IMG/VR virus record: IMGVR_UViG_3300044712_002668
Span: 124,001-188,000 of that record
Direction: 5' to 3' (one strand)
DNA: 64,000 nucleotides
DNA from: a virus
Shown piece after piece: positions 16,364 through 60,821 of the stretch. The position numbers and the translations under genes are program-made. Position 1 is the stretch's first letter. Each line of letters opens with the position of its first letter. Below the pieces are notes generated by a model that saw only the letters and a program-made list of their open reading frames with translations, did not search any database and was not told where the DNA came from.

Positions 16364-17704
16364 ATGTCAACAAAAACATCCGTTGAAACAGTACAACAAG
16401 AGGAAATAGTGAACGATTTAGAAAACAAGATCGATAATGATAAGATGGCTGAGCTGAAGGCCAGAATGGCTGCAAAGAAAGAAGAGGAAAAAACTATGCC
16501 TCCTAGAATTGTAGAAGAAAAAAGAAAAAGTATCCGTTTTGGTGTTGTAGGATCAGGGCAAGCAGGATCCCGTATTGCAGAAGCTTTTTACAAGCTTGGC
16601 TACCCTGCCATTGCTATTAACACAGCACAACAGGATCTGGAACATATCGAGATCCCTGAAAATAATAAGTTGTTTCTGAAGTATGGTTTAGGTGGAGCGG
16701 CAAAAGATCTGACCATTGGTCATGCTGCTGCTGAAACATATTCAGATGAAATTAATCAACTGATGAATCGTAAGGTGGGTAATGAAGAGTCTATTCTTTT
16801 CTGTACCTCCCTTGGTGGCGGTTCAGGTGCAGGTTCTTCTGAGGTTATTCTCAATCTTATCCTGCAAATGCAGGTGCCAATCATTGTAATCACTGTACTC
16901 CCACAAAACAGTGATGATGTTCAAGTCAAGTCAAATGCTTTGCAAACCTTAAGCAAGTTTACAAAGATGGCTCAAAATGAGCAGATTCAAAATCTTATCG
17001 TTGTTGATAATGCCAAGATTGAGCACATCTATAGCGATGTAAGCCCATTTAATTTCTTCAAGGTTTCAAACCAGGCAATTGTTAATCCAATTCATCAGTT
17101 CAATGTTCTTAGTGCAGAGGTTTCTGCAGTAAAGCCGTTAGACTCAAATGAGTTCGGTAAGATGTTTACCGATGGTAAGGGTTTGACAGTTTATGGTACT
17201 ATGAAGGTTGAAAACTATGAAGATGAAACTGCTATTGCCAGCTCTTTGATTGATAATCTCAGTGGGAGTTTATTGGCAGATGGTTTCAAGTTATCACAGG
17301 CCAAATATGTTGGCTTTATGCTGGCTGCTCCAAAGCGTGTTTGGGATAAGATTCCCAATGTCAGTTTGACGTATGCTAAGAGTGTTATCTCTGAAGCTTG
17401 TGACAATCCTTCTGGTATTTTCCATGGATTGTATGAGATTGAGTCAGAGGAAGAGTGCATTACCGTATACAGTATGTTCTCTGGTCTTGGACTCCCAACT
17501 GATCGTATTGAACAGTTGAAAACTGAAACGAAAGAAAAACTTGCTGCGGCTGCCAAGAAGGATGCCGAACGTAATCTTACATTGAAGTTGGATGTAGGTG
17601 AAACAAACGTTTCAGCGGTTGATGCTATCAAACAGAAAATTGCGGCAAAGAAGAGTAGCTTCGGAAAGCTACATGAGAAAGCCGTCATTGATCGTAGAAA
17701 ATAA
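16364..17704 (+). CDS. FtsZ/tubulin-like GTPase
   Basis: After a charged N-terminal extension of about 60 residues, FGVVGSGQAGSRIAEAF matches the FtsZ first glycine loop, AINTAQQDLEHI matches FtsZ AINTDxQAL, and TSLGGGSGAGSS (about residues 150-161) is a variant of the tubulin signature GGGTGTG. The C-terminal domain is present, followed by a basic tail. Related phage proteins (PhuZ, TubZ-like) form filaments that position or transport phage DNA and virions. Whether this one polymerises depends on the T7 catalytic Asp, which I cannot place with certainty. Base composition is slightly richer in GC than neighbours, consistent with high expression. Confidence 0.85.
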   Translation: MSTKTSVETVQQEEIVNDLENKIDNDKMAELKARMAAKKEEEKTMPPRIVEEKRKSIRFGVVGSGQAGSRIAEAFYKLGYPAIAINTAQQDLEHIEIPENNKLFLKYGLGGAAKDLTIGHAAAETYSDEINQLMNRKVGNEESILFCTSLGGGSGAGSSEVILNLILQMQVPIIVITVLPQNSDDVQVKSNALQTLSKFTKMAQNEQIQNLIVVDNAKIEHIYSDVSPFNFFKVSNQAIVNPIHQFNVLSAEVSAVKPLDSNEFGKMFTDGKGLTVYGTMKVENYEDETAIASSLIDNLSGSLLADGFKLSQAKYVGFMLAAPKRVWDKIPNVSLTYAKSVISEACDNPSGIFHGLYEIESEEECITVYSMFSGLGLPTDRIEQLKTETKEKLAAAAKKDAERNLTLKLDVGETNVSAVDAIKQKIAAKKSSFGKLHEKAVIDRRK

Positions 17705-34538: not shown

Positions 34539-34964
34539 ATGGCTAATAGAAAAACAATCATAATAGTTGATGAGGCAATTGTTGATGGATATGTTCTAAC
34601 ATACTCATCTATAGATGGATATTTCAAACCATTGCCAGCTTCTGGCGGTATTGCGCCAGCAACAGTAACAGATGTATCATCCCCAACCTATACTGTAACT
34701 GCTTATGATTTCAACCAACGTTTTAGAATGCTATACAACGGAAGTAGCTGTCAGGTTACATTGCCAGCAGCGGCATCTTTAACAGAAGGTTCTACTTGGA
34801 CATTTAAAGATGTAGATGGATATGCTGGAACTTATACTTACAGTGTGGTTGCCGGGGCTAATACAACAATAGACAAGGCTAGTAGCTGGACATTCCCATC
34901 AGCTCCCTATACCGCTCTTAGCCTTGTATATCATAGTTTGTCTGCAAACTGGGAAGTTATTTAG
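34539..34964 (+). CDS. Small fibre-associated protein
   Basis: 141 aa. Its start MANRKTIIIVDEAIVDGYVL is homologous to the start of the giant protein at 38321 ([20 protein letters not shown]), so both may attach to the same structure. The rest (YTVTAYDFNQRFRMLYNG, VTLPAAASLTEGSTWTFKDV) is the short beta domain common in phage tail-fibre C-termini. The gene converges on and overlaps by 4 bp the antisense LamG-like gene. Confidence 0.75.
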   Translation: MANRKTIIIVDEAIVDGYVLTYSSIDGYFKPLPASGGIAPATVTDVSSPTYTVTAYDFNQRFRMLYNGSSCQVTLPAAASLTEGSTWTFKDVDGYAGTYTYSVVAGANTTIDKASSWTFPSAPYTALSLVYHSLSANWEVI

Positions 34965-36484
34965 TAGTTGATAAACTTAATCATTCTCCAAGTATTTGCC
35001 GAAGCATTTGCGCAAATATAAAACTCTCCAGTAGTACTTTTTCTAACCTCACAGTTGCCTGGGTTGGCAGGAAAAGCTGCGTCTGGAAATACGGTCAAGG
35101 CACTAGAGTCAAAGGCTGTAGAGTATACTTTACGTCCCGTAGTGATTCTTATTTCATCTAAACATCCATCAAGATAAGTATAGACAGATCCTGTATAGTA
35201 TTTACCAAAGCGTAATACTGGATAGAATCTAGTTATATTGTAATTTAATGAACCTGTAGAATATTTAGTGCCATTGACATACAGAGCTAGACATGATTGA
35301 TCCGTTGTACCTATAAATTCTCTTTGTATAGCTACATGGCTCCATGTATTAAGTGATATAGCAGAGGATTGTACGCTTACAAAGGTTGTATCAGTTCCCA
35401 TATATGCCGTTACAACACCATTTGATTCTAGTTTCAAATATACACCAACCAATCCTGCTGAATAATCCTGATAGAATATGGCTGATCCAGAGGCGTTGAA
35501 AGCTCTTGGATAAACCCAAGTTTCTATTGTCCATTCTTCAAAGCCTGCGTTTACTACAGTATCGCATATATTCACTTCAAGCACAGAGCTTGTACCATTG
35601 AAATCCAAAGATGCATTACCGAATTTATTGATTGAAGTGTTATAGGTCGTATTTATTAAAGCATAACAAGCTGGATATAATCCAAAGTTCATTCCATACA
35701 TTTTGTTATATTGATCGGCATAGTACGCTTGCGATCTTATTGTATTTTCTACACGAACATCCCAGATAGTAGCTTTACTTGTACCATTTCCCTGATCTCC
35801 TAAAACAGAATATTGTCCATGTGTTCCGTATGAGACTGGGGTTCCTGGCGTAGTATATTCTGTTCCAACCAAGCTTCCATTCATATATACTTTTAATAGA
35901 CCCAGCGATGCATCGTATGTCATTGACAGCAAATACCATGCATTTAAAGATAGCATGTGATCTGTAATAAGTATAACAGTACGAGATGATACTCCAAAAG
36001 CTACACCAGCATACCATCGTCCATTATTAGAGTCTGATATACCAATACCCCAGGACTCCCAGGGGCCAGTCCATGAGTTATCAGCTCTATATGATTTGTC
36101 AACAAAAGCTGCCCAACTGGAACTGAAACTATCAAGCTTTACCCAGAAACTTACAGACAGTGTGTTTGTATATTCACCTACAGAAGTGTATCCTGAACCG
36201 AGGCGGCATGTACCGTTGTTTGAGTTTACTGCGGTAGGGCTTGCTCCAAGAGGGCTATTTACTATTGTTGGAGTTCCGAAATCTTTTCCTAAACTTAGTG
36301 TTCCTGCATTACCTGTATTGACCCATGGTGAATCATTTTCACCCAATAGCCATTGGATACCAGTATAACCATCTACAGCCACAGTTGAGCTAGTAGTGGT
36401 GTTACAGTGAGCGTGATACATTGTATGTAATGTTGGCAGATTTGAATCAGTTAGCGGAATTCTTTGTGGTGGAAAGTAACTCAT
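34961..36484 (-). CDS. Two-domain LamG-like (concanavalin A-like) protein
   Basis: 507 aa on the reverse strand, starting MSYFPPQRIPLTDSNLPTLH. Residues about 45-265 form a LamG-like domain (WLLGENDSPWVNTGNAGTLSL split over the start, LSVSFWVKLDSFSSSW, VYMNGSLVGTEY, IWDVRVENTIRS). Residues about 275-470 form a second one (NASLDFNGTSSVLEVN, LYVNGTKYSTG, DGCLDEIRITTG). It ends with a short strand domain also found in its two upstream paralogues. Last gene of a three-gene antisense operon. Carbohydrate binding is likely. Confidence 0.8.
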   Translation of the reverse strand: MSYFPPQRIPLTDSNLPTLHTMYHAHCNTTTSSTVAVDGYTGIQWLLGENDSPWVNTGNAGTLSLGKDFGTPTIVNSPLGASPTAVNSNNGTCRLGSGYTSVGEYTNTLSVSFWVKLDSFSSSWAAFVDKSYRADNSWTGPWESWGIGISDSNNGRWYAGVAFGVSSRTVILITDHMLSLNAWYLLSMTYDASLGLLKVYMNGSLVGTEYTTPGTPVSYGTHGQYSVLGDQGNGTSKATIWDVRVENTIRSQAYYADQYNKMYGMNFGLYPACYALINTTYNTSINKFGNASLDFNGTSSVLEVNICDTVVNAGFEEWTIETWVYPRAFNASGSAIFYQDYSAGLVGVYLKLESNGVVTAYMGTDTTFVSVQSSAISLNTWSHVAIQREFIGTTDQSCLALYVNGTKYSTGSLNYNITRFYPVLRFGKYYTGSVYTYLDGCLDEIRITTGRKVYSTAFDSSALTVFPDAAFPANPGNCEVRKSTTGEFYICANASANTWRMIKFINY

Positions 36485-37377
36485 AGGTTTCCTCTTACAT
36501 ACCGTAAATCCATACCAGTATCATCAAGCCTTGTCCAAATATTAGATGCGTTTTTAATTGTTAAAGCATTATAACCATCTGGTTTAATTTCTCCAATGGT
36601 AGCTGATGCTGATGATATAGAATCTGTAAAAGCTTGAGTTGGTGCTAGAAAGTTCTTTGCAAGGATACCTGAGTCATAGAAATTACCACCACGATACCAA
36701 GTGTATCCGCTTGTAATTCTTACTTCATCAAGCCTGCCTGTTAAATATAAACCATTATGTGGATAGTATCCCATATACAAATCATATGGAGAATTGAAAG
36801 TATCAGTTGGTAACAACTTAACATAGTTCGTTTGCATTGCACCGTTTATAAACATTATTAGGAAATTGTTATCCCTACATATTGCTACGTGATTCCATAC
36901 ATTCAGTGGTAAAGTAGAGCTTGATAGGAGAACAGGTTTCCATGAGAAAATCCCGTTAAGAGTGTATAGAAAACCAATAAGAGGATCTGCCGGGTTACTG
37001 GTAGTAGCAAGATACCAACCTCTTTGATCCGCATTTGATGAGCAATTTATTATTGGTTTATCACTTGATTGTTGTGGAATGTTTATCCAGAACTCTATGG
37101 TAAAGTCTTTGTTAGATAAATTAACTATTCTGTCAAATTCTCCACAGTATACAGATCCGCCCCCACCAAAATAAAAACATCCAGTTCCAAATTTTGGATT
37201 TGTGGCATCAATTATAGCGTTTCCTAGCATGTTCAAAGTGTTATTATATATTGATGAGTCTACAGTGTTTGTTTGACCTTGTGTACCATTGGCATGACAA
37301 TGTAATTTGACATATTGACTATGTAAATTAGTATCTGTTGTAGCTGGTTTGAAATATGTTGGAGGTATATATGTCAT
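36481..37377 (-). CDS. LamG-like (concanavalin A-like) protein
   Basis: 298 aa, reverse strand. It begins MTYIPPTYFKPATTDTNLHS, like its upstream paralogue. The LamG-like core shows TGCFYFGGGGSVYCGEFD, FTIEFWINIPQQSSD, WNHVAICRDNNFLIMFINGA and GRLDEVRITSGYTWYRGG. A C-terminal IKPDGYNALTIKNASNIW block matches the other two antisense products. ATGA-type 4-bp overlaps join all three genes, so they are cotranscribed. Probably an alternative fibre-tip or decoration lectin. Confidence 0.8.
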   Translation of the reverse strand: MTYIPPTYFKPATTDTNLHSQYVKLHCHANGTQGQTNTVDSSIYNNTLNMLGNAIIDATNPKFGTGCFYFGGGGSVYCGEFDRIVNLSNKDFTIEFWINIPQQSSDKPIINCSSNADQRGWYLATTSNPADPLIGFLYTLNGIFSWKPVLLSSSTLPLNVWNHVAICRDNNFLIMFINGAMQTNYVKLLPTDTFNSPYDLYMGYYPHNGLYLTGRLDEVRITSGYTWYRGGNFYDSGILAKNFLAPTQAFTDSISSASATIGEIKPDGYNALTIKNASNIWTRLDDTGMDLRYVRGNL

Positions 37378-38222
37378 AGCACTCCTTTGAATACGGTGTT
37401 CTTTATTTGCTTCCAGGTTGGCGCAACAATATCAGTACACATATAAACATTTCCATATGCATCTTGTTTCATATCACCGACAAATGTAGCGGCTGGCATA
37501 ACAGGATTTGTCAATGGACCTGGCGTGAAATCTGCTGTATATAAAGCTTGGCCAATTGTAATACGAACATCATCAACATAACCATACATGCTTTTTTGTC
37601 CGCCAGGAAATGGTGAGTAATATCCTATATTCCAATTTGCACTTGATCTCATTAAAAATTTAGAATCTACTGGAATAGTATTTTGTAGTTGACCATTTAG
37701 ATACATTTTTATACTAGTAGTACTATTATTTCGTACAACGGCTACATGATACCATTGGTTTGTAGTAAATGCGCTTGAGCCTATTGCTGCCACCCAATTA
37801 TTTGTCCCCTTCCTAGCCCATATAAACAAAAATATGTTATTATCAGTAATCAATATAGGACCTTGTTGATCAGCGTCAGTATAACTACAAAGAAACGCTT
37901 GGTATCCAATATTTACTTGTGTGGGATATATCCACATTTCAATTGTGAAATCTTTATCATCAAAATTTAAAAGACCCCTACTATTATCCAGAGTTACTTT
38001 GTTTGTTACAGTGCCATCAAAATAAAGAGATGACGATCCATATTTATATACTGATGTAGATATTACAGCCGAACCAGAAGCAGTGTATGTTTTGTTATAC
38101 AAACTGCTATCTGTCATTGCTTGAGATCCATTAGTTCCTTCACAATGAAATAGTGTTTTTGTATAAAACGCAGAGAAATCTGCAATTGGTACTTTGGGTG
38201 GCATTGGTGGAATGTAAGTCAT
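37374..38222 (-). CDS. LamG-like (concanavalin A-like) protein
   Basis: 282 aa, reverse strand, first gene of the antisense trio. It begins MTYIPPMPPKVPIADFSAFY and has the LamG-like pattern YGSSSLYFDGTVTNKVTLD, DFTIEMWIYPTQVN, WYHVAVVRNNSTTSIKMYLN and YGYVDDVRITIGQAL. The end, MKQDAYGNVYMCTDIVAPTW, is the shared terminal block. Its start faces that of the giant + strand gene across a 98-bp divergent region. Confidence 0.8.
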   Translation of the reverse strand: MTYIPPMPPKVPIADFSAFYTKTLFHCEGTNGSQAMTDSSLYNKTYTASGSAVISTSVYKYGSSSLYFDGTVTNKVTLDNSRGLLNFDDKDFTIEMWIYPTQVNIGYQAFLCSYTDADQQGPILITDNNIFLFIWARKGTNNWVAAIGSSAFTTNQWYHVAVVRNNSTTSIKMYLNGQLQNTIPVDSKFLMRSSANWNIGYYSPFPGGQKSMYGYVDDVRITIGQALYTADFTPGPLTNPVMPAATFVGDMKQDAYGNVYMCTDIVAPTWKQIKNTVFKGVL

Positions 38223-50187: not shown

Positions 50188-50373
50188 ATGATTTTGCACA
50201 AAACACTTTCCTTTGAGGAAGCTTTAGAATACCTTGCTTATGCCGTAATGATGCGTGATTTACCAGACGGATTTGATGGTAAAATTACATGTGAACTTAA
50301 TGATGATGGGTCTATAGATATATACGCCGCACCATCAGAAACCGAAGAAAAAGAAAATAATACTATGAATTAA
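50188..50373 (+). CDS. Small unknown protein
   Basis: 61 aa with CGGAGTTTT upstream. Helix SFEEALEYLAYAVMMRDLPD followed by a strand KITCELNDDGSIDIYAA and an acidic Glu/Asn tail. Its end converges with the antisense hydrolase-like gene with 11-bp overlap. No family recognised. Confidence 0.62.
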   Translation: MILHKTLSFEEALEYLAYAVMMRDLPDGFDGKITCELNDDGSIDIYAAPSETEEKENNTMN

Positions 50374-51328
50374 ATATATTTTTCAATATATCTCCGCCCA
50401 TGTTCAAAACATCAACGTGTTGTTTCTTCAAGCTATCTAATGGTACTTTTGAATTATCGAAAGCTTGAAACACTTGTAAGCCACCTTGACCGGCTTTGGA
50501 GGCAATATTGACACCTCCTATATTTTCATTTGCTTTGTTTCTTTGCAATCCAAGTGTTTGTAATAAATAATTTGATGTTTCAGTGGTAGATCCATAATCT
50601 GTTGGGATGGCAGAGTGGGCAATATAGAATTTCTTGGAAGGATCTTTCATAGCTTCCTTTGCCCATTCAACCCATTCTTTCATATCATTAGGGTTTACAT
50701 TACCATTTGTTTTTGAACTATGCATTCCATCAAGAAGAACAACAGAATCCAAGTTGTTTTTTATTGGTGTAGCTAAATTGTTTTTATCTTTAAGTATTCT
50801 TCTGATAGGATCATAGCCACCAGACCATCCAACAAAAGCTACCTTTCCTACTTTAAGATCATTTCTGTTTAGCTGTTGTTTTAGTTGGTTCATTACTGAG
50901 CTTACAGCATTGTTTACAAATGCAGCGTTTCCATATACCAAACCAGCAGCCATTCCTCCCATACCAGTAGCATCTGGTGGTAATCCCCATTTTGCCTTGA
51001 AGGCAGCACTTGCGGCCGGATCTTTAGGAATATTTACAGACATTATATCTGCTGTAATCAATATTGCATTTGAATTCGCTTGTGCTAGAGCTTTGGTATT
51101 ACCACCCCTGAACCATATAATAAAGTTTACAGATCCATCGGGTTGTATCACTTGTGGTCCGGGCCAAAATACAGAAGAACATCCAGGTGGCCCGCTTAAA
51201 GAAACTTTAAGCTGAGAATATTTTTTCTCACCACCAGAAGATGGAAAAGCTTTTTCTACAGCATCAGTAAGTGGACCTGCTAATTTTTGTAGCTGTTCAA
51301 GTGCTAGTTTTCTAAAATTTCTATCCAT
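50363..51328 (-). CDS. Alpha/beta-hydrolase-like protein
   Basis: 321 aa on the reverse strand. VAFVGWSGGYDPIRRIL contains GWSGG, the GxSxG nucleophile elbow. LDSVVLLDGMHSS provides a strand ending in Asp, and the C-terminal KKQHVDVLN provides a His, so a Ser-Asp-His triad is possible. FIIWFRGGN sits where an oxyanion-hole strand would be. No signal peptide. Substrate unknown. It is oriented against its neighbours and starts 33 bp from the divergent zinc-ribbon/PARP operon. Confidence 0.7.
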   Translation of the reverse strand: MDRNFRKLALEQLQKLAGPLTDAVEKAFPSSGGEKKYSQLKVSLSGPPGCSSVFWPGPQVIQPDGSVNFIIWFRGGNTKALAQANSNAILITADIMSVNIPKDPAASAAFKAKWGLPPDATGMGGMAAGLVYGNAAFVNNAVSSVMNQLKQQLNRNDLKVGKVAFVGWSGGYDPIRRILKDKNNLATPIKNNLDSVVLLDGMHSSKTNGNVNPNDMKEWVEWAKEAMKDPSKKFYIAHSAIPTDYGSTTETSNYLLQTLGLQRNKANENIGGVNIASKAGQGGLQVFQAFDNSKVPLDSLKKQHVDVLNMGGDILKNIFNS

Positions 51329-51361: not shown

Positions 51362-51574
51362 ATGGTTATATCCATGGTTATGGATACAAACCTAGAATTA
51401 ATAAAAGATACTCTGCTTCATTTGTTTACTGAGGGCCAGGTCTTGCCTCGCTGCCCGCATTGTGCTATGTTTCTCGGCCCCAAAGAATTGAATGGTAAAT
51501 GTTCTGCTTGTTCCGGTAGAATTGAATTTTCTACCGTAGTCTGGATAAGTACCGACAACATTCCGAAAGCATAA
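51362..51574 (+). CDS. Small zinc-ribbon protein
   Basis: 70 aa (later ATGs at 51374 or 51380 are possible starts). PRCPHCAMFLGPKELNGKCS followed by AC gives two CxxC knuckles 14 residues apart, a zinc ribbon. It ends 2 bp before the PARP gene and is probably cotranscribed with it. A TATAAT-like box lies about 28 bp upstream (51335). A partner or nucleic-acid adaptor for the PARP is possible. Confidence 0.65.
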   Translation: MVISMVMDTNLELIKDTLLHLFTEGQVLPRCPHCAMFLGPKELNGKCSACSGRIEFSTVVWISTDNIPKA

Positions 51575-51576
51575 AG

Positions 51577-53082
51577 ATGTCAAAAGATAAAGTTAAGACG
51601 GAAGATAAGCCTCTTATTCCAGAAGGTAAATATGATGTTACCGATGTCAAAGAATTGAACTTCTTTGATCTATCTGGAGAAAAGGCAAAAACAAAAGGTA
51701 CTTCTAATAAGTTTTATCATGCCGAAATCCAGAAAGAAAAATCTGGAACTCGTGTTCAGCTATATACTATGTACGGTGCCACTGGAAAAGTACAAGCCAG
51801 GGAGTGGCGGTATTTTTCAGATGAGCTTGCTGCCAAGAAAGAATTCAATAGAATTATTTCCAGCAAACTAAAAAAAGGATATGTAGAGATTGATGTAGCT
51901 CAAAGAGCTTTAGGATCTGATTCTGCTAAACAGATAACCAAACCAGTTGTTTTGGCAAATGCAGATCATCTTGTTACGCCTGTTTCTTCAAAGCTTGATG
52001 CTGGACAAAAAAGAATTGTTGAAATATTCTTTGGAAGTCAGGATCATTTCGTAGCTACCACTCTTAAATGTCCACTAGGACAGCTATCAAATACACAGAT
52101 AGATAAAGGCCGTGACGTTCTAAATCAAGCCAAAGATATTGTAAATAGTGGTAGTATTGATAAGAATAAGCTTACTGATTTAACCAATCAATTTTACGGC
52201 TTGATTCCACATAATCTAGGAGGAGGGGCTAGAGGTCAGATGACCGAGCTTCTTCTTGATACTCTTCCAAAGATTGTGGGAAAGGAAAGCGATCTTGATA
52301 CCTTGCTTGATGCGAAGCAAGTCAATGCTGTTTTGAAATCCGATTCAACTATTGATACAAAGTATGATAGTTTGAATTGTGATTTCCTTTCAGTAGATCC
52401 TTCTAGTGATATTTTCAAATTTATGTCCTCGTATTTTCAGGATACAAAAGTACGTGGACATGGTTATGATAAAGAGCGTGTAGTAAATATTTGGGAAATG
52501 AACCGCAAGGATGATAAAGAAAAAGCATTCTTGAAGAATACTGATATAATTGCAAAGCAATGTGGTAAACATTCCTTTGTTTCTGAAACTGAACGTTTAT
52601 CAGGTGGGAAGAATAAGCTGTGGACTCCTGATAAGCGTCCTGATTTAGATAAAGATTTGGTAAAGCTATATACCAATGCAAATGTTTGGTTGTGTTGGCA
52701 TGGAACCAGATCTGCTAATCTGGTTGGTATTACCAGGCGTGGTTTGTTGATTAGACCATCTGGAGCTGTGTATACTGGATCCATGTTTGGAGATGGTAAG
52801 TATTTTGCCTGGCAAAGTACAAAGTCTTTGAACTATACAGATGGTGGATATTGGACTGGAGGTAGACATAATGTATCTTCCAGGTTTATGTTTATCATGG
52901 ATGTTGCTATGGGTAAGCAACACATCTCTCATAATTCACACTTTTTCAAAAAACCACCAGCCGGATTTCATTCTGTATATGGTAAGGCAGGCTCTGGCTT
53001 GTGGAATGATGAAATGATTACATACGATTTTGATGATAAGGATAATCAGTCTGCAATAAGATACTTGTTGGAAATCGTTTAA
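51577..53082 (+). CDS. WGR-domain poly(ADP-ribose) polymerase-like protein
   Basis: 501 aa. Residues about 40-110 resemble a WGR domain (FYHAEIQKEKSGTRVQLYTM, then AREWRYFSDELAAKKEF), with the WGR tripeptide itself degenerate. Residues about 135-260 look like the helical PARP regulatory domain (VLNQAKDIVNSG, YGLIPHNLG). Residues about 365-501 are the catalytic domain: His375 in CWHGTR, Tyr420 in KSLNY, and Glu479 in NDEMITYD form the H-Y-E triad of true PARPs. MFGDGKYFAW is the donor loop. It should transfer ADP-ribose from NAD+ to proteins or nucleic acids. No signal peptide is seen. Confidence 0.88.
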   Translation: MSKDKVKTEDKPLIPEGKYDVTDVKELNFFDLSGEKAKTKGTSNKFYHAEIQKEKSGTRVQLYTMYGATGKVQAREWRYFSDELAAKKEFNRIISSKLKKGYVEIDVAQRALGSDSAKQITKPVVLANADHLVTPVSSKLDAGQKRIVEIFFGSQDHFVATTLKCPLGQLSNTQIDKGRDVLNQAKDIVNSGSIDKNKLTDLTNQFYGLIPHNLGGGARGQMTELLLDTLPKIVGKESDLDTLLDAKQVNAVLKSDSTIDTKYDSLNCDFLSVDPSSDIFKFMSSYFQDTKVRGHGYDKERVVNIWEMNRKDDKEKAFLKNTDIIAKQCGKHSFVSETERLSGGKNKLWTPDKRPDLDKDLVKLYTNANVWLCWHGTRSANLVGITRRGLLIRPSGAVYTGSMFGDGKYFAWQSTKSLNYTDGGYWTGGRHNVSSRFMFIMDVAMGKQHISHNSHFFKKPPAGFHSVYGKAGSGLWNDEMITYDFDDKDNQSAIRYLLEIV

Positions 53083-53278
53083 CCTACGCTTGACTGTTCC
53101 AATCGTCATGCTACCGTCACCGCTCTGTCACAATTAGGCCAACTGGTCATACCAGCTAAAGGTCTTGATCTGTCTATGCATATGTAGACAAAACTCTTAC
53201 CTGGAGGTGAGAAAACTAGATTGTAAGATATCTATTTTGGTACTGATAGGTGAAAAACATCAAAGAGGTAAAAAACAC
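53083..53278 (+). other. Untranslated stretch with several short hairpins
   Basis: About 196 bp without a convincing gene. Three hairpins are visible: CTGGTCATACCAG near 53140, GTCTA with TAGAC near 53173-53190, and CTTACC with GGTGAG near 53198-53213. GTCAC repeats occur near 53115-53131. It may be a long leader for the lytic gene or a small RNA. The in-frame upstream extension of the lytic gene to 53165 is unlikely to be translated. Confidence 0.4.
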
Positions 53279-53914
53279 ATGCTAACTTTCAAACACATTC
53301 TACTAATTCTCCAAAGCATATCTCCTTATTATGAGGATAAAGAGACAGCCCAAGAGAGAACAGACCGTATGACTATACTTGCAAACAGTATAGATTATGC
53401 TGCTCATGCGTCTGTATGTCAGAAACTATCAGCAGAAGGCACTAAGAAGTGCAAGAAGCTCTTTGATGGTGATCCGATTTATATGGCAGCTATGTTATTG
53501 ACCATTGGACGCTTTGAGTCCGCATTTGCCAAACATGTGCATGAAAATAAATGCCGCACAAAACAAGGTGAATGTGACGGGGGTAGAGCTAGAAGTCCAT
53601 GGCAGTTTCAGAATACTCCACTCACCAGCAAGTGGTGGGTGAAGTATAAGGGCGCTGATTTAAAATCAACAAAAATTGGTGCTTGGGCTGCTACCAATGT
53701 AATCGCTAATGCCTTCAAGGGTTGCGGTTCATGGCAGGGTTCCATCGCAATGTATGCTACTGGATCTACATGTAAGTGGTCCAGGGCAAAAGAAAGATAT
53801 GATTGGTTTGTTAAAACCAATATTCAACTAAGAAAACTCATCAAGCAAGATGAGGAAGAACAAGAAAAGCAAAAAGAAAAATCCGAAGATTCGGATAAGA
53901 TAGCTCAACGATAA
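53279..53914 (+). CDS. Lytic transglycosylase/endolysin-like protein
   Basis: 211 aa from ATG 53279, with AGAGG upstream. AAMLLTIGRFESAFAKHVHE carries the catalytic Glu of SLT-like lysozyme folds (ExSxFxxxA type). GGRARSPWQFQNTPLT matches the sGlxQi-like substrate loop, and a late GSIAMYATGSTCKW matches the ALxxYNxG motif. The tail is a Lys/Glu/Gln-rich helix. It likely cuts peptidoglycan for lysis or entry. No signal peptide, so a holin would be needed. A terminator follows. Confidence 0.78.
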   Translation: MLTFKHILLILQSISPYYEDKETAQERTDRMTILANSIDYAAHASVCQKLSAEGTKKCKKLFDGDPIYMAAMLLTIGRFESAFAKHVHENKCRTKQGECDGGRARSPWQFQNTPLTSKWWVKYKGADLKSTKIGAWAATNVIANAFKGCGSWQGSIAMYATGSTCKWSRAKERYDWFVKTNIQLRKLIKQDEEEQEKQKEKSEDSDKIAQR

Positions 53915-57731: not shown

Positions 57732-59327
57732 ATGTCTAGCGCAAAGTTTGTACAGCAAGTTATTGGTAACGATCCAAACCGTAAGGTTATCAAGATTGAT
57801 TCTTATTTGTCAGCTAACGAGACTGCTGAAGAGGCAGTGGCTCGTGTATTGCTGACTGGTATTTTGAAGAATCAATTCTATCGTTCGGTAGATGATATTA
57901 CAAAGGAAGCCCTACCTCTTGTAGAGAATATGGCAGATAGCAATCCTGAATATCTGCTTAAGGCGGCTTGTATTGCTCGTAATAGCCATATGAAGGGTAT
58001 GGTCAAGGTTGCCATTGCAGCAATCAACGGGCATGCAAATGATACTTTCTTGAATCGTGATGAGATCAAGGAAGCTATTGTTTCTTTGTTAGCAACATTC
58101 CATCCTGGTCAGTTGATTCAGTTTGTGGAACTGTGCAAGTCCAAGAAGTTTGGGCGTGGATTTGGTTCCAGACCCCAGAAGTGGGTTCGTTCTGCCATGG
58201 AGCGTTGGAATGCGTGGAAGCTTGAGGAGAATACCCTTAAGTATCCAACAGCATTGAATCAACTTGTACGTTTGGTTCATCCACGTTTCAAGGATGAGCG
58301 TGCTGGATTGGTATTGTACGTTCTTGATGGCAAGAAGTCTGAAGCAACTGGTGCTAAGCAGAAGGTTGTGGAAACTTTAAAGGCTGACACTTCTGATAAG
58401 AAGAAGATTGCCAATGCCATCTTGGATCATAAGATTCCATGGGATGTTATCAAGGGTTTTGCAGGCTTGGATGGTCCTATTGCCATGGCTGCAATGACTC
58501 AAATGGGATTGACGGCTTTATTGCTTAATATCCGTTCTTTGGAAGAGCATAATGTTTTCTCTACCACAGATGGATTGAGGGCTCTAAGCCTCAAGATGGA
58601 TGAGGTCAAGGATGGTCGTGCCATTCCTATGGACTTTGCAAAGCCATATATCTACGCTACCAATAGCAAGGTAAAAGATATCTTGCTGGATGCGATGGTA
58701 TCTACTCTTGATGTACCAATGCCTGCTATCGAAGGTAGGAAGGTTGGTGTGTCTGTTGATATCTCTGGTTCTATGGCCGGTGAAACTCTTAAAACTGCCG
58801 GTCTTCTTGCAGTTCCTTTCCTGAAGGCAAATGATTTGTGGTTTACTACTTTTGATACTTCATTGTATGAAGAGGGTAATACCATTAATCAGGGACGTAG
58901 GGATTTTTGGGGTTATTCCTCAAATGGTTTCTGTCCTAAGTTGAAGGGTAGGAGTCGCAAAGATCAAGTGAAGTCTTTGCTTGATTTGAAGACCGCTGGT
59001 GGAACCGATGTCTCCCAGCCAATTGTTCATGCAATTGCTTCACAAAGGTTTTTGGATGTTATGGTGCTTATCACCGATGAGCAGCAGAATGCCGGAACTC
59101 CTTTGATGAGGGTTTGGAATGAGTATTTGGCAAAGGTAAACCCAAGAGCCCATCTTTGGGTAATCAATGCCACAAATTCAAACTGGCATGCTGCAGATTT
59201 TGGTCATAGGAATGTTACAGTGTATCAGACTATGACCCCAGCATTATTCAAGAATCTTGAATACGTTGGTCAGGACTTGGTCAAAGCCATCAAAGACTTT
59301 GATTTCAAGGATGTTGGGAAGCGTTAG
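57732..59327 (+). CDS. rsr: Ro60/Rsr homologue (TROVE and vWA domains)
   Basis: 531 aa, the normal length of bacterial Rsr and vertebrate Ro60. Residues about 15-330 are the HEAT-like TROVE ring (ILKNQFYRSVDDITKEALPL, KAACIARNSHMKG, KKFGRGFGSRPQKWV, AMTQMGLTALLLNIRSL). Residues about 335-531 are a vWA domain with an intact MIDAS: DISGS at 343-347, Thr425 in GGTDVS, and Asp449 in ITDEQQ. Ro60 binds Y RNAs on the ring's outer surface and misfolded RNA ends in its cavity, and in bacteria it tethers to exoribonucleases. Codons are richer in GC than neighbours and the Shine-Dalgarno is AGGAGG, suggesting strong expression. Confidence 0.95.
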   Translation: MSSAKFVQQVIGNDPNRKVIKIDSYLSANETAEEAVARVLLTGILKNQFYRSVDDITKEALPLVENMADSNPEYLLKAACIARNSHMKGMVKVAIAAINGHANDTFLNRDEIKEAIVSLLATFHPGQLIQFVELCKSKKFGRGFGSRPQKWVRSAMERWNAWKLEENTLKYPTALNQLVRLVHPRFKDERAGLVLYVLDGKKSEATGAKQKVVETLKADTSDKKKIANAILDHKIPWDVIKGFAGLDGPIAMAAMTQMGLTALLLNIRSLEEHNVFSTTDGLRALSLKMDEVKDGRAIPMDFAKPYIYATNSKVKDILLDAMVSTLDVPMPAIEGRKVGVSVDISGSMAGETLKTAGLLAVPFLKANDLWFTTFDTSLYEEGNTINQGRRDFWGYSSNGFCPKLKGRSRKDQVKSLLDLKTAGGTDVSQPIVHAIASQRFLDVMVLITDEQQNAGTPLMRVWNEYLAKVNPRAHLWVINATNSNWHAADFGHRNVTVYQTMTPALFKNLEYVGQDLVKAIKDFDFKDVGKR

Positions 59328-60643: not shown

Positions 60644-60724
60644 GGGGCGTGAGGCATCTGGTAGAGGCCGCCAGTCTTATAAACTGGGAAGATAACGAGC
60701 AGAGTTCAAATCTCTGACGCCCCA
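60644..60724 (+). tRNA. tRNA with anticodon UAU by position (Ile, AUA)
   Basis: Acceptor GGGGCGT/ACGCCCC (7 bp), D-arm GGC...GCC with GGTAGA loop, anticodon stem CCAGT/ACTGG with loop CTTATAA, T-arm CAGAG-TTCAAAT-CTCTG and discriminator A; CCA is not encoded. The anticodon reads UAU. The 12-nt variable region (GAAGATAACGAG) is long for tRNA-Ile. An upstream ACGCCC (about 60634-60639) could compete for the acceptor 5' strand. AUA is a frequent codon in this AT-rich genome, which would justify the gene. Confidence 0.75.
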
Positions 60725-60747
60725 CTGGGTATAGTGAAAATTTAATA

Positions 60748-60819
60748 CGGGGTATAGGACAGAGGTAGTCCGCTAGTTTTGGGAACTAGAAGTCGCTGGT
60801 TCAAATCCAGCTACCCCGA
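60748..60819 (+). tRNA. tRNA-Pro (anticodon UGG)
   Basis: Acceptor CGGGGTA/TACCCCG (7 bp, C1-G72 as in tRNA-Pro), D-arm GGAC-AGAGGTA-GTCC, anticodon stem CTAGT/ACTAG with loop TTTGGGA, a 5-nt variable loop, T-arm GCTGG-TTCAAAT-CCAGC, and discriminator A. CCA is not encoded. A canonical, probably functional tRNA reading CCA and other Pro codons. Confidence 0.93.
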
Positions 60820-60821
60820 CA

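Follow-up and report, generated by a model that had tools for sequence, protein, structure and literature searches.

A WGR-domain PARP with a complete H-Y-E triad and a replaced WGR arginine in a small clade of phages

The virus record IMGVR_UViG_3300044712_002668 (335,988 bp) contains, within the 64,000-nucleotide stretch that we analyzed (positions 124001-188000 of the record, hereafter the window), a gene whose 501 aa product is predicted from its sequence and from a structural model to be a PARP of the H-Y-E type, with a WGR domain, a helical regulatory domain (HD) and a catalytic domain (CAT). The clade to which this protein belongs naturally carries a substitution, loss of the WGR arginine, that uncouples human PARP1, PARP2 and PARP3 from DNA, and its catalytic and regulatory residues are kept. 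As judged from the alignments, this arginine loss in a small phage clade is what is new here, as a variant of the phage PARPs already known. It turns a general resemblance to PARPs into a testable question, and the clade offers a clean test both of how PARP allostery is rewired and of how phages use PARPs.

Domains, catalytic triad and fold

The PARP gene, the gene upstream and the features discussed below, all on the plus strand of the window, are as follows.

51362..51574, plus strand: zinc-ribbon gene (candidate partner), 70 aa, CxxC-x12-CxxC (C31, C34, C47, C50) (ORF, alignment)
51577..53082, plus strand: PARP gene, 501 aa, WGR, helical regulatory domain, catalytic domain (ORF, Pfam, AlphaFold2 model, Foldseek, profile)
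51685..51894, plus strand: WGR domain, aa 37-106 (Pfam WGR, 40.1 bits, 4e-10, cut-off 22; alignment columns)
51778..51780, plus strand: codon of A68, at the position of PARP1 R591, PARP2 R140 and PARP3 R103 (alignments; PMC4081085)
52063..52371, plus strand: PARP_reg helical (autoinhibitory) domain, aa 163-265 (Pfam PARP_reg, 58.1 bits, 1.3e-15, cut-off 26.8)
52414..53079, plus strand: PARP catalytic domain, aa 280-501 (Pfam PARP, PF00644, 72.4 bits, 4.7e-20, cut-off 26.7, match aa 280-471; profile match to human PARP1/PARP2)
52513..52680, plus strand: insert at roughly aa 313-368, largely helical by prediction, immediately ahead of the catalytic histidine (alignment; model secondary structure and pLDDT)
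52699..52701, plus strand: H375, equivalent to PARP1 H862 (alignments)
52801..52803, plus strand: Y409, equivalent to PARP1 Y896 (alignments)
53011..53013, plus strand: E479, equivalent to PARP1 E988 (alignments, profile)

The original prediction, made from the DNA letters, of a complete H-Y-E triad in a 501-aa frame that also encodes WGR-like and regulatory domains was borne out: all three Pfam domains score above their cut-offs and they stand in the order of the DNA-dependent PARP1-3 type. H375, Y409 and E479 are invariant among 14 phage PARPs and again in an alignment of 26 phage and cellular PARPs. A profile built from the latter (A4) matched human PARP2 (7e-60) and PARP1 (1.2e-57) across the WGR, helical and catalytic domains and placed E479 on E988, whereas the best single-sequence alignments stopped short of the catalytic glutamate. 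Residues K416 and S417 align with PARP1 K903 and S904, and the triad and the K903 equivalent are kept in every aligned sequence. In the helical domain, leucine occupies the columns of PARP1 L698, L701 and L713, and aspartate those of D766 and D770. The AlphaFold2 model of the protein (pLDDT 80.6, pTM 0.76) has human PARP1 and PARP2 on DNA as its top Foldseek matches in the PDB (E 7.6e-24) and can be superposed on both. Conservation of these residues suggests that the protein is very probably active as an enzyme and that its helical domain probably gates that activity.

Replacement of the WGR arginine

The WGR signature of the window protein, whose alteration the original prediction overlooked, reads Y66-G67-A68-T69-G70. 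The arginine is replaced in seven phages, by alanine in the window protein and by proline in six relatives, giving the signature x-G-(A/P)-T-G in the window phage and in L015, L017, L016, L002, L003 and L004; these seven sampled members, one of which is a 54-kb contig, form a clade with support of 99/98. Arginine is present in 47 of the 47 other sequences that have this WGR column (21 phage, 24 cellular, and human PARP1 and PARP2), a further phage sequence being gapped there and lying outside the 47. In a bacterial survey, no site of the WGR domain coevolved more strongly than this G-R pair (PMC5966428). In the human enzymes, the substitutions R591A (PARP1), R140A (PARP2) and R103A (PARP3) abolish DNA-dependent activity, and R140A and R103A leave DNA-independent activity in place (PMC4081085). 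By analogy with these mutants, we lean toward the view that canonical DNA-end activation has been lost or rewired in the phage enzymes. The suggestion that the protein might respond to DNA breaks during infection is weakened, since the arginine on which DNA-dependent activity of the PARP1-3 type depends is alanine (A68) here.

Elsewhere in the WGR domain N44, K45 and G67 are conserved; G67, T69 and G70 are invariant across the five closest sequences, and mean column identity within the clade is 73%. Because the WGR and helical domains are well conserved apart from the arginine, its loss looks like a remodeling of the protein and not like its decay. The insert, predicted to be helical, lies in the segment preceding the catalytic histidine, which is 45-57 aa long in the ten-phage clade containing the window protein and in one 595-kb phage (L009), and 12-19 aa in all others.

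A linked zinc-ribbon gene

The small zinc-ribbon gene that was predicted to be linked to the PARP gene is real. Its stop codon is 2 nt ahead of the PARP start, and homologues lie directly 5' of the PARP gene in the four nearest relatives (L015, L016, L017 and L002) with gaps of 9-17 nt. Altogether the zinc ribbon is present in five of the 11 records searched, namely the window genome and these four, and was not found in the six other records of relatives; the sole extra match, in the window genome, was not significant (E 0.23). All four cysteines are invariant in the five homologues, in which the other invariant residues are just Met1 and one glycine. L003 and L004 have neither the WGR arginine nor the zinc ribbon; the two traits coincide imperfectly. 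Some of the other neighbors differ among the phages that bear the zinc ribbon, so the pairing of PARP and zinc ribbon outlasts local rearrangement.

The idea that this protein echoes the zinc finger of PARP is not supported: the short CxxC-x12-CxxC protein has no Pfam, PHROG or NCBIfam match and no Foldseek match in the PDB at E <= 0.001, and no recognizable family or fold of a PARP1-type zinc finger. It is short and fast-evolving, and linkage by itself is no demonstration of interaction. We regard it as a plausible, though tentative, candidate for a partner of the PARP.

Known phage PARPs and phylogeny

Phages were already known to carry H-Y-E PARPs, and the premise of the original prediction, that known phage ADP-ribosyltransferases are of the R-S-E group, is contradicted by several sources. 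Perina 2014 described phage PARPs with the H-Y-E triad, including those of Aeromonas phage Aeh1 and Cellulophaga phage phi4:1, and reported that three of the four PARPs from viruses have the triad (PMC4245714). Iyer 2021 referred to the PARP of jumbo phage XacN1 (PMC7824862), a 2022 survey counted PART(PARP) as one of the commonest ART families of viruses (PMC9503650), and the depositors of GenBank entry QQV91759.1, from a cultured Klebsiella phage, named its WGR, regulatory and catalytic domains. Our own tblastn searches located PARPs in 15 phage records, and scans of IMG/VR gave further ones. A search of the literature found no phage PARP with a demonstrated role.

In our tree phage PARPs are polyphyletic, falling in at least three places among the cellular ones. 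The window protein belongs to a clade of ten environmental phages (98/94) that is sister to human PARP1/2 together with Bacilli megaplasmid PARPs (100/100), in a tree whose sampling does not extend to canonical bacterial PARPs such as CdPARP and HaPARP. A first tree had this clade beside human PARP1/2, and phages were considered as ancestors of eukaryotic PARPs; that reading was dropped since the Bacilli megaplasmid PARPs, once added, adjoin the human ones and leave the phage clade as their sister. WGR-PARPs also occur on bacterial plasmids of 360-900 kb (loci L054-L061; Bacilli, Pseudomonas, Vibrio and Variovorax), and the Variovorax plasmid PARP has SSB and Rad52-family genes nearby.

Genome context and ADP-ribose-related genes

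The 335,988-bp record has a terminase-like gene (phrog_2, 3.9e-8) and also encodes a DnaB-type helicase, RNR and a tail-fiber match, so its designation as a phage is well supported. Shine-Dalgarno-like motifs precede 53% of start codons, as against 15% in shuffles. Neighbors of the PARP gene include an IMPDH/GMP reductase-like gene, ThyX, two DEDD exonucleases and a Ro60-like gene. The last of these (57732-59327 of the window) encodes a Ro60/TROVE-like RNA-binding protein of 531 aa (Pfam vWA_Ro60, NCBIfam Rsr, PHROG 850); Rfam, used with its gathering threshold, gave no Y RNA. Two further neighbors, at 50363-51328 on the minus strand and 53165-53914 on the plus strand, have no Pfam or PHROG match, and the window phage shares the former with L015 and L016 only. 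Most of the window is coded on the plus strand; a minus-strand block at 34961-38222 includes two proteins with concanavalin A-like lectin (Laminin_G_3) domains. The protein encoded at 16364-17704 weakly matches the phage tubulin PhuZ (PHROG 4733, E 1e-4), and genes for tRNA-Ile (anticodon tat) and tRNA-Pro (tgg) lie at 60644-60820, with an odd tRNA-like match that lacks a full anticodon at 62967-63039.

A macrodomain protein resembling SCO6735/BT1257 is encoded at G000:188612-189124 (L039 1396-1908), just past the end of the window and ~11 kb downstream of the PARP gene; it also matches DarG models. Our reading of the alignment gives it Gln/Ala where TARG1 has Lys84/Asp125, as in the SCO6735/BT1257 subgroup (PMC5087735). 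SCO6735 removes Glu-linked ADP-ribose (PMC5087735) and also thymidine-linked ADP-ribose made by DarT (PMC9411070). A KptA/Tpt1-like NAD-dependent RNA 2'-phosphotransferase gene in the same genome (G000:222980-223471, minus strand, 172 bits) suggests NAD-dependent RNA repair. The macrodomain could serve the PARP, have an anti-DarT function or clear the by-product of KptA. We do not claim a writer-eraser pair of PARP and macrodomain: the macrodomain is found in 9 of 11 PARP-bearing records of at least 200 kb, a count made among PARP-bearing records only, and its relatives occur in 821 phage records. Such a pairing is also weakened by the action of SCO6735 on the DarT product and by KptA, whose by-product may be the substrate of the macrodomain. 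A search for ADP-ribosyl-glycohydrolases found nothing, and one for PARG by PF10021 gave no match, the PF10021 controls being silent everywhere too.

Proposed mechanism and alternatives

The reading that we favor, with middling confidence, is that of a competent, HD-gated H-Y-E ADP-ribosyltransferase with a rewired trigger, perhaps acting via the zinc-ribbon protein. The helical domain would hold the enzyme off until the trigger arrives. With alanine or proline in place of the arginine that links the helical domain to a DNA end, this coupling would have changed, and a new trigger might come through the helical insert gained beside the catalytic histidine, through the zinc ribbon, or through both; in the closest five phages the zinc-ribbon protein encoded alongside may stand in for the lost contact, be it with nucleic acid or for activation. 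Once released, the enzyme would modify itself and, in its vicinity, proteins of the host or phage or nucleic-acid ends, adding ADP-ribose from NAD+ either singly or in chains. A role in host takeover or in protection of the replicating genome is weakly suggested. We are doubtful of the more specific proposal of a split two-gene PARP, in which the clade would be uncoupled from canonical DNA-end sensing and activated by the zinc-ribbon protein in trans, as a natural R591A-type enzyme; if true, action in trans would make this a compact two-part PARP switch.

The main rival to a rewired trigger is continued activation by DNA ends through other contacts. The protein would then be an ordinary DNA-break-activated poly(ADP-ribose) polymerase: its WGR domain would still bind ends, the insert, the zinc ribbon or other residues would make up for the missing arginine, and during infection the enzyme would detect nicks or ends, whether in phage DNA or in degraded DNA of the host. 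The domain order of PARP2/3, the conservation of N44, K45 and G67 and the best structural matches, which are DNA-bound PARPs, are all consistent with this, and PARP1 differs from PARP2/3 in its use of the WGR arginine, which counts against a rewired trigger. Of the bacterial homologues, CdPARP and HaPARP make PAR in a DNA-dependent manner (PMC5966428), and therefore DNA activation could persist here via compensating contacts. We nevertheless consider it somewhat unlikely, as the one WGR residue invariant in 47 other sequences is alanine or proline in these phages, and alanine at that position ends DNA-dependent activity in three human enzymes.

Human PARP2 and PARP3 keep DNA-independent activity without the coupling arginine (PMC4081085), and surveys allow that phage PARPs may act like other phage ARTs (PMC7824862). 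The phage protein might on these grounds be a DNA-independent, host-targeting ADP-ribosyltransferase in the manner of T4 Alt, ModA and ModB, directed for example at the translation machinery or at RNA polymerase, its WGR and helical domains doing no more than dock the substrate. However, the inhibitory-core residues of the helical domain are kept, and no head genes adjoin the PARP gene in the stretch examined, where its neighbors are nucleotide-metabolism genes; this possibility appears quite improbable. A phage-encoded superinfection defense or NAD+-depleting abortive effector is very improbable: although other ADP-ribosyltransferases take part in phage-bacterium conflict, such as an mRNA ART reported to serve in anti-phage defense (PMC11618068), PADLOC models match neither the PARP nor the zinc-ribbon protein, and no toxin-antitoxin-like neighbor was recognized. 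Finally, that the gene is a decaying or inactive remnant, as the altered WGR signature might indicate, is hardly credible given the open frame, full triad, within-clade conservation and retained gene linkage.

Comparison with known systems

Like the window protein, the PARPs of XacN1 (BBA65562.1) and of Stenotrophomonas phages CM1 and RAS14 are phage-encoded and have a WGR motif and the H-Y-E triad. They differ from it in sequence (about 27% identity), in keeping the WGR arginine, in having a 15-aa segment and no long insert before the catalytic histidine, in lacking a zinc-ribbon neighbor and in grouping with actinobacterial and Variovorax PARPs in the tree. Klebsiella phages FBKp34 (QQV91759.1), 05F01 and KP13-16 encode proteins with the same WGR-regulatory-catalytic order; these are about 26% identical over their full length, keep the arginine, have no insert and form a separate branch. 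Cellulophaga phages phi4:1 and phi17:2 and Aeromonas phage Aeh1 likewise have PARPs, but those of Cellulophaga phages are distant, on a long branch, and YGR is kept in phi17:2.

Among cellular proteins, CdPARP, HaPARP and the Bacilli megaplasmid PARPs share the domain order of the window protein. The megaplasmid PARPs reach 31% full-length identity to it, yet keep Y/N-G-R and have 12 aa and no insert before the histidine. The T4 enzymes Alt, ModA and ModB are, like the window PARP's type, phage-encoded NAD+-dependent ADP-ribosyltransferases, but they belong to the R-S-E clade and not to the H-Y-E clade (PMC9503650). Human PARP2 and PARP1 resemble the window PARP in the modeled fold, domain order, triad and HD residues; in contrast, both keep W-G-R and have no insert before the catalytic histidine, and PARP1 carries its N-terminal zinc fingers within the same chain.
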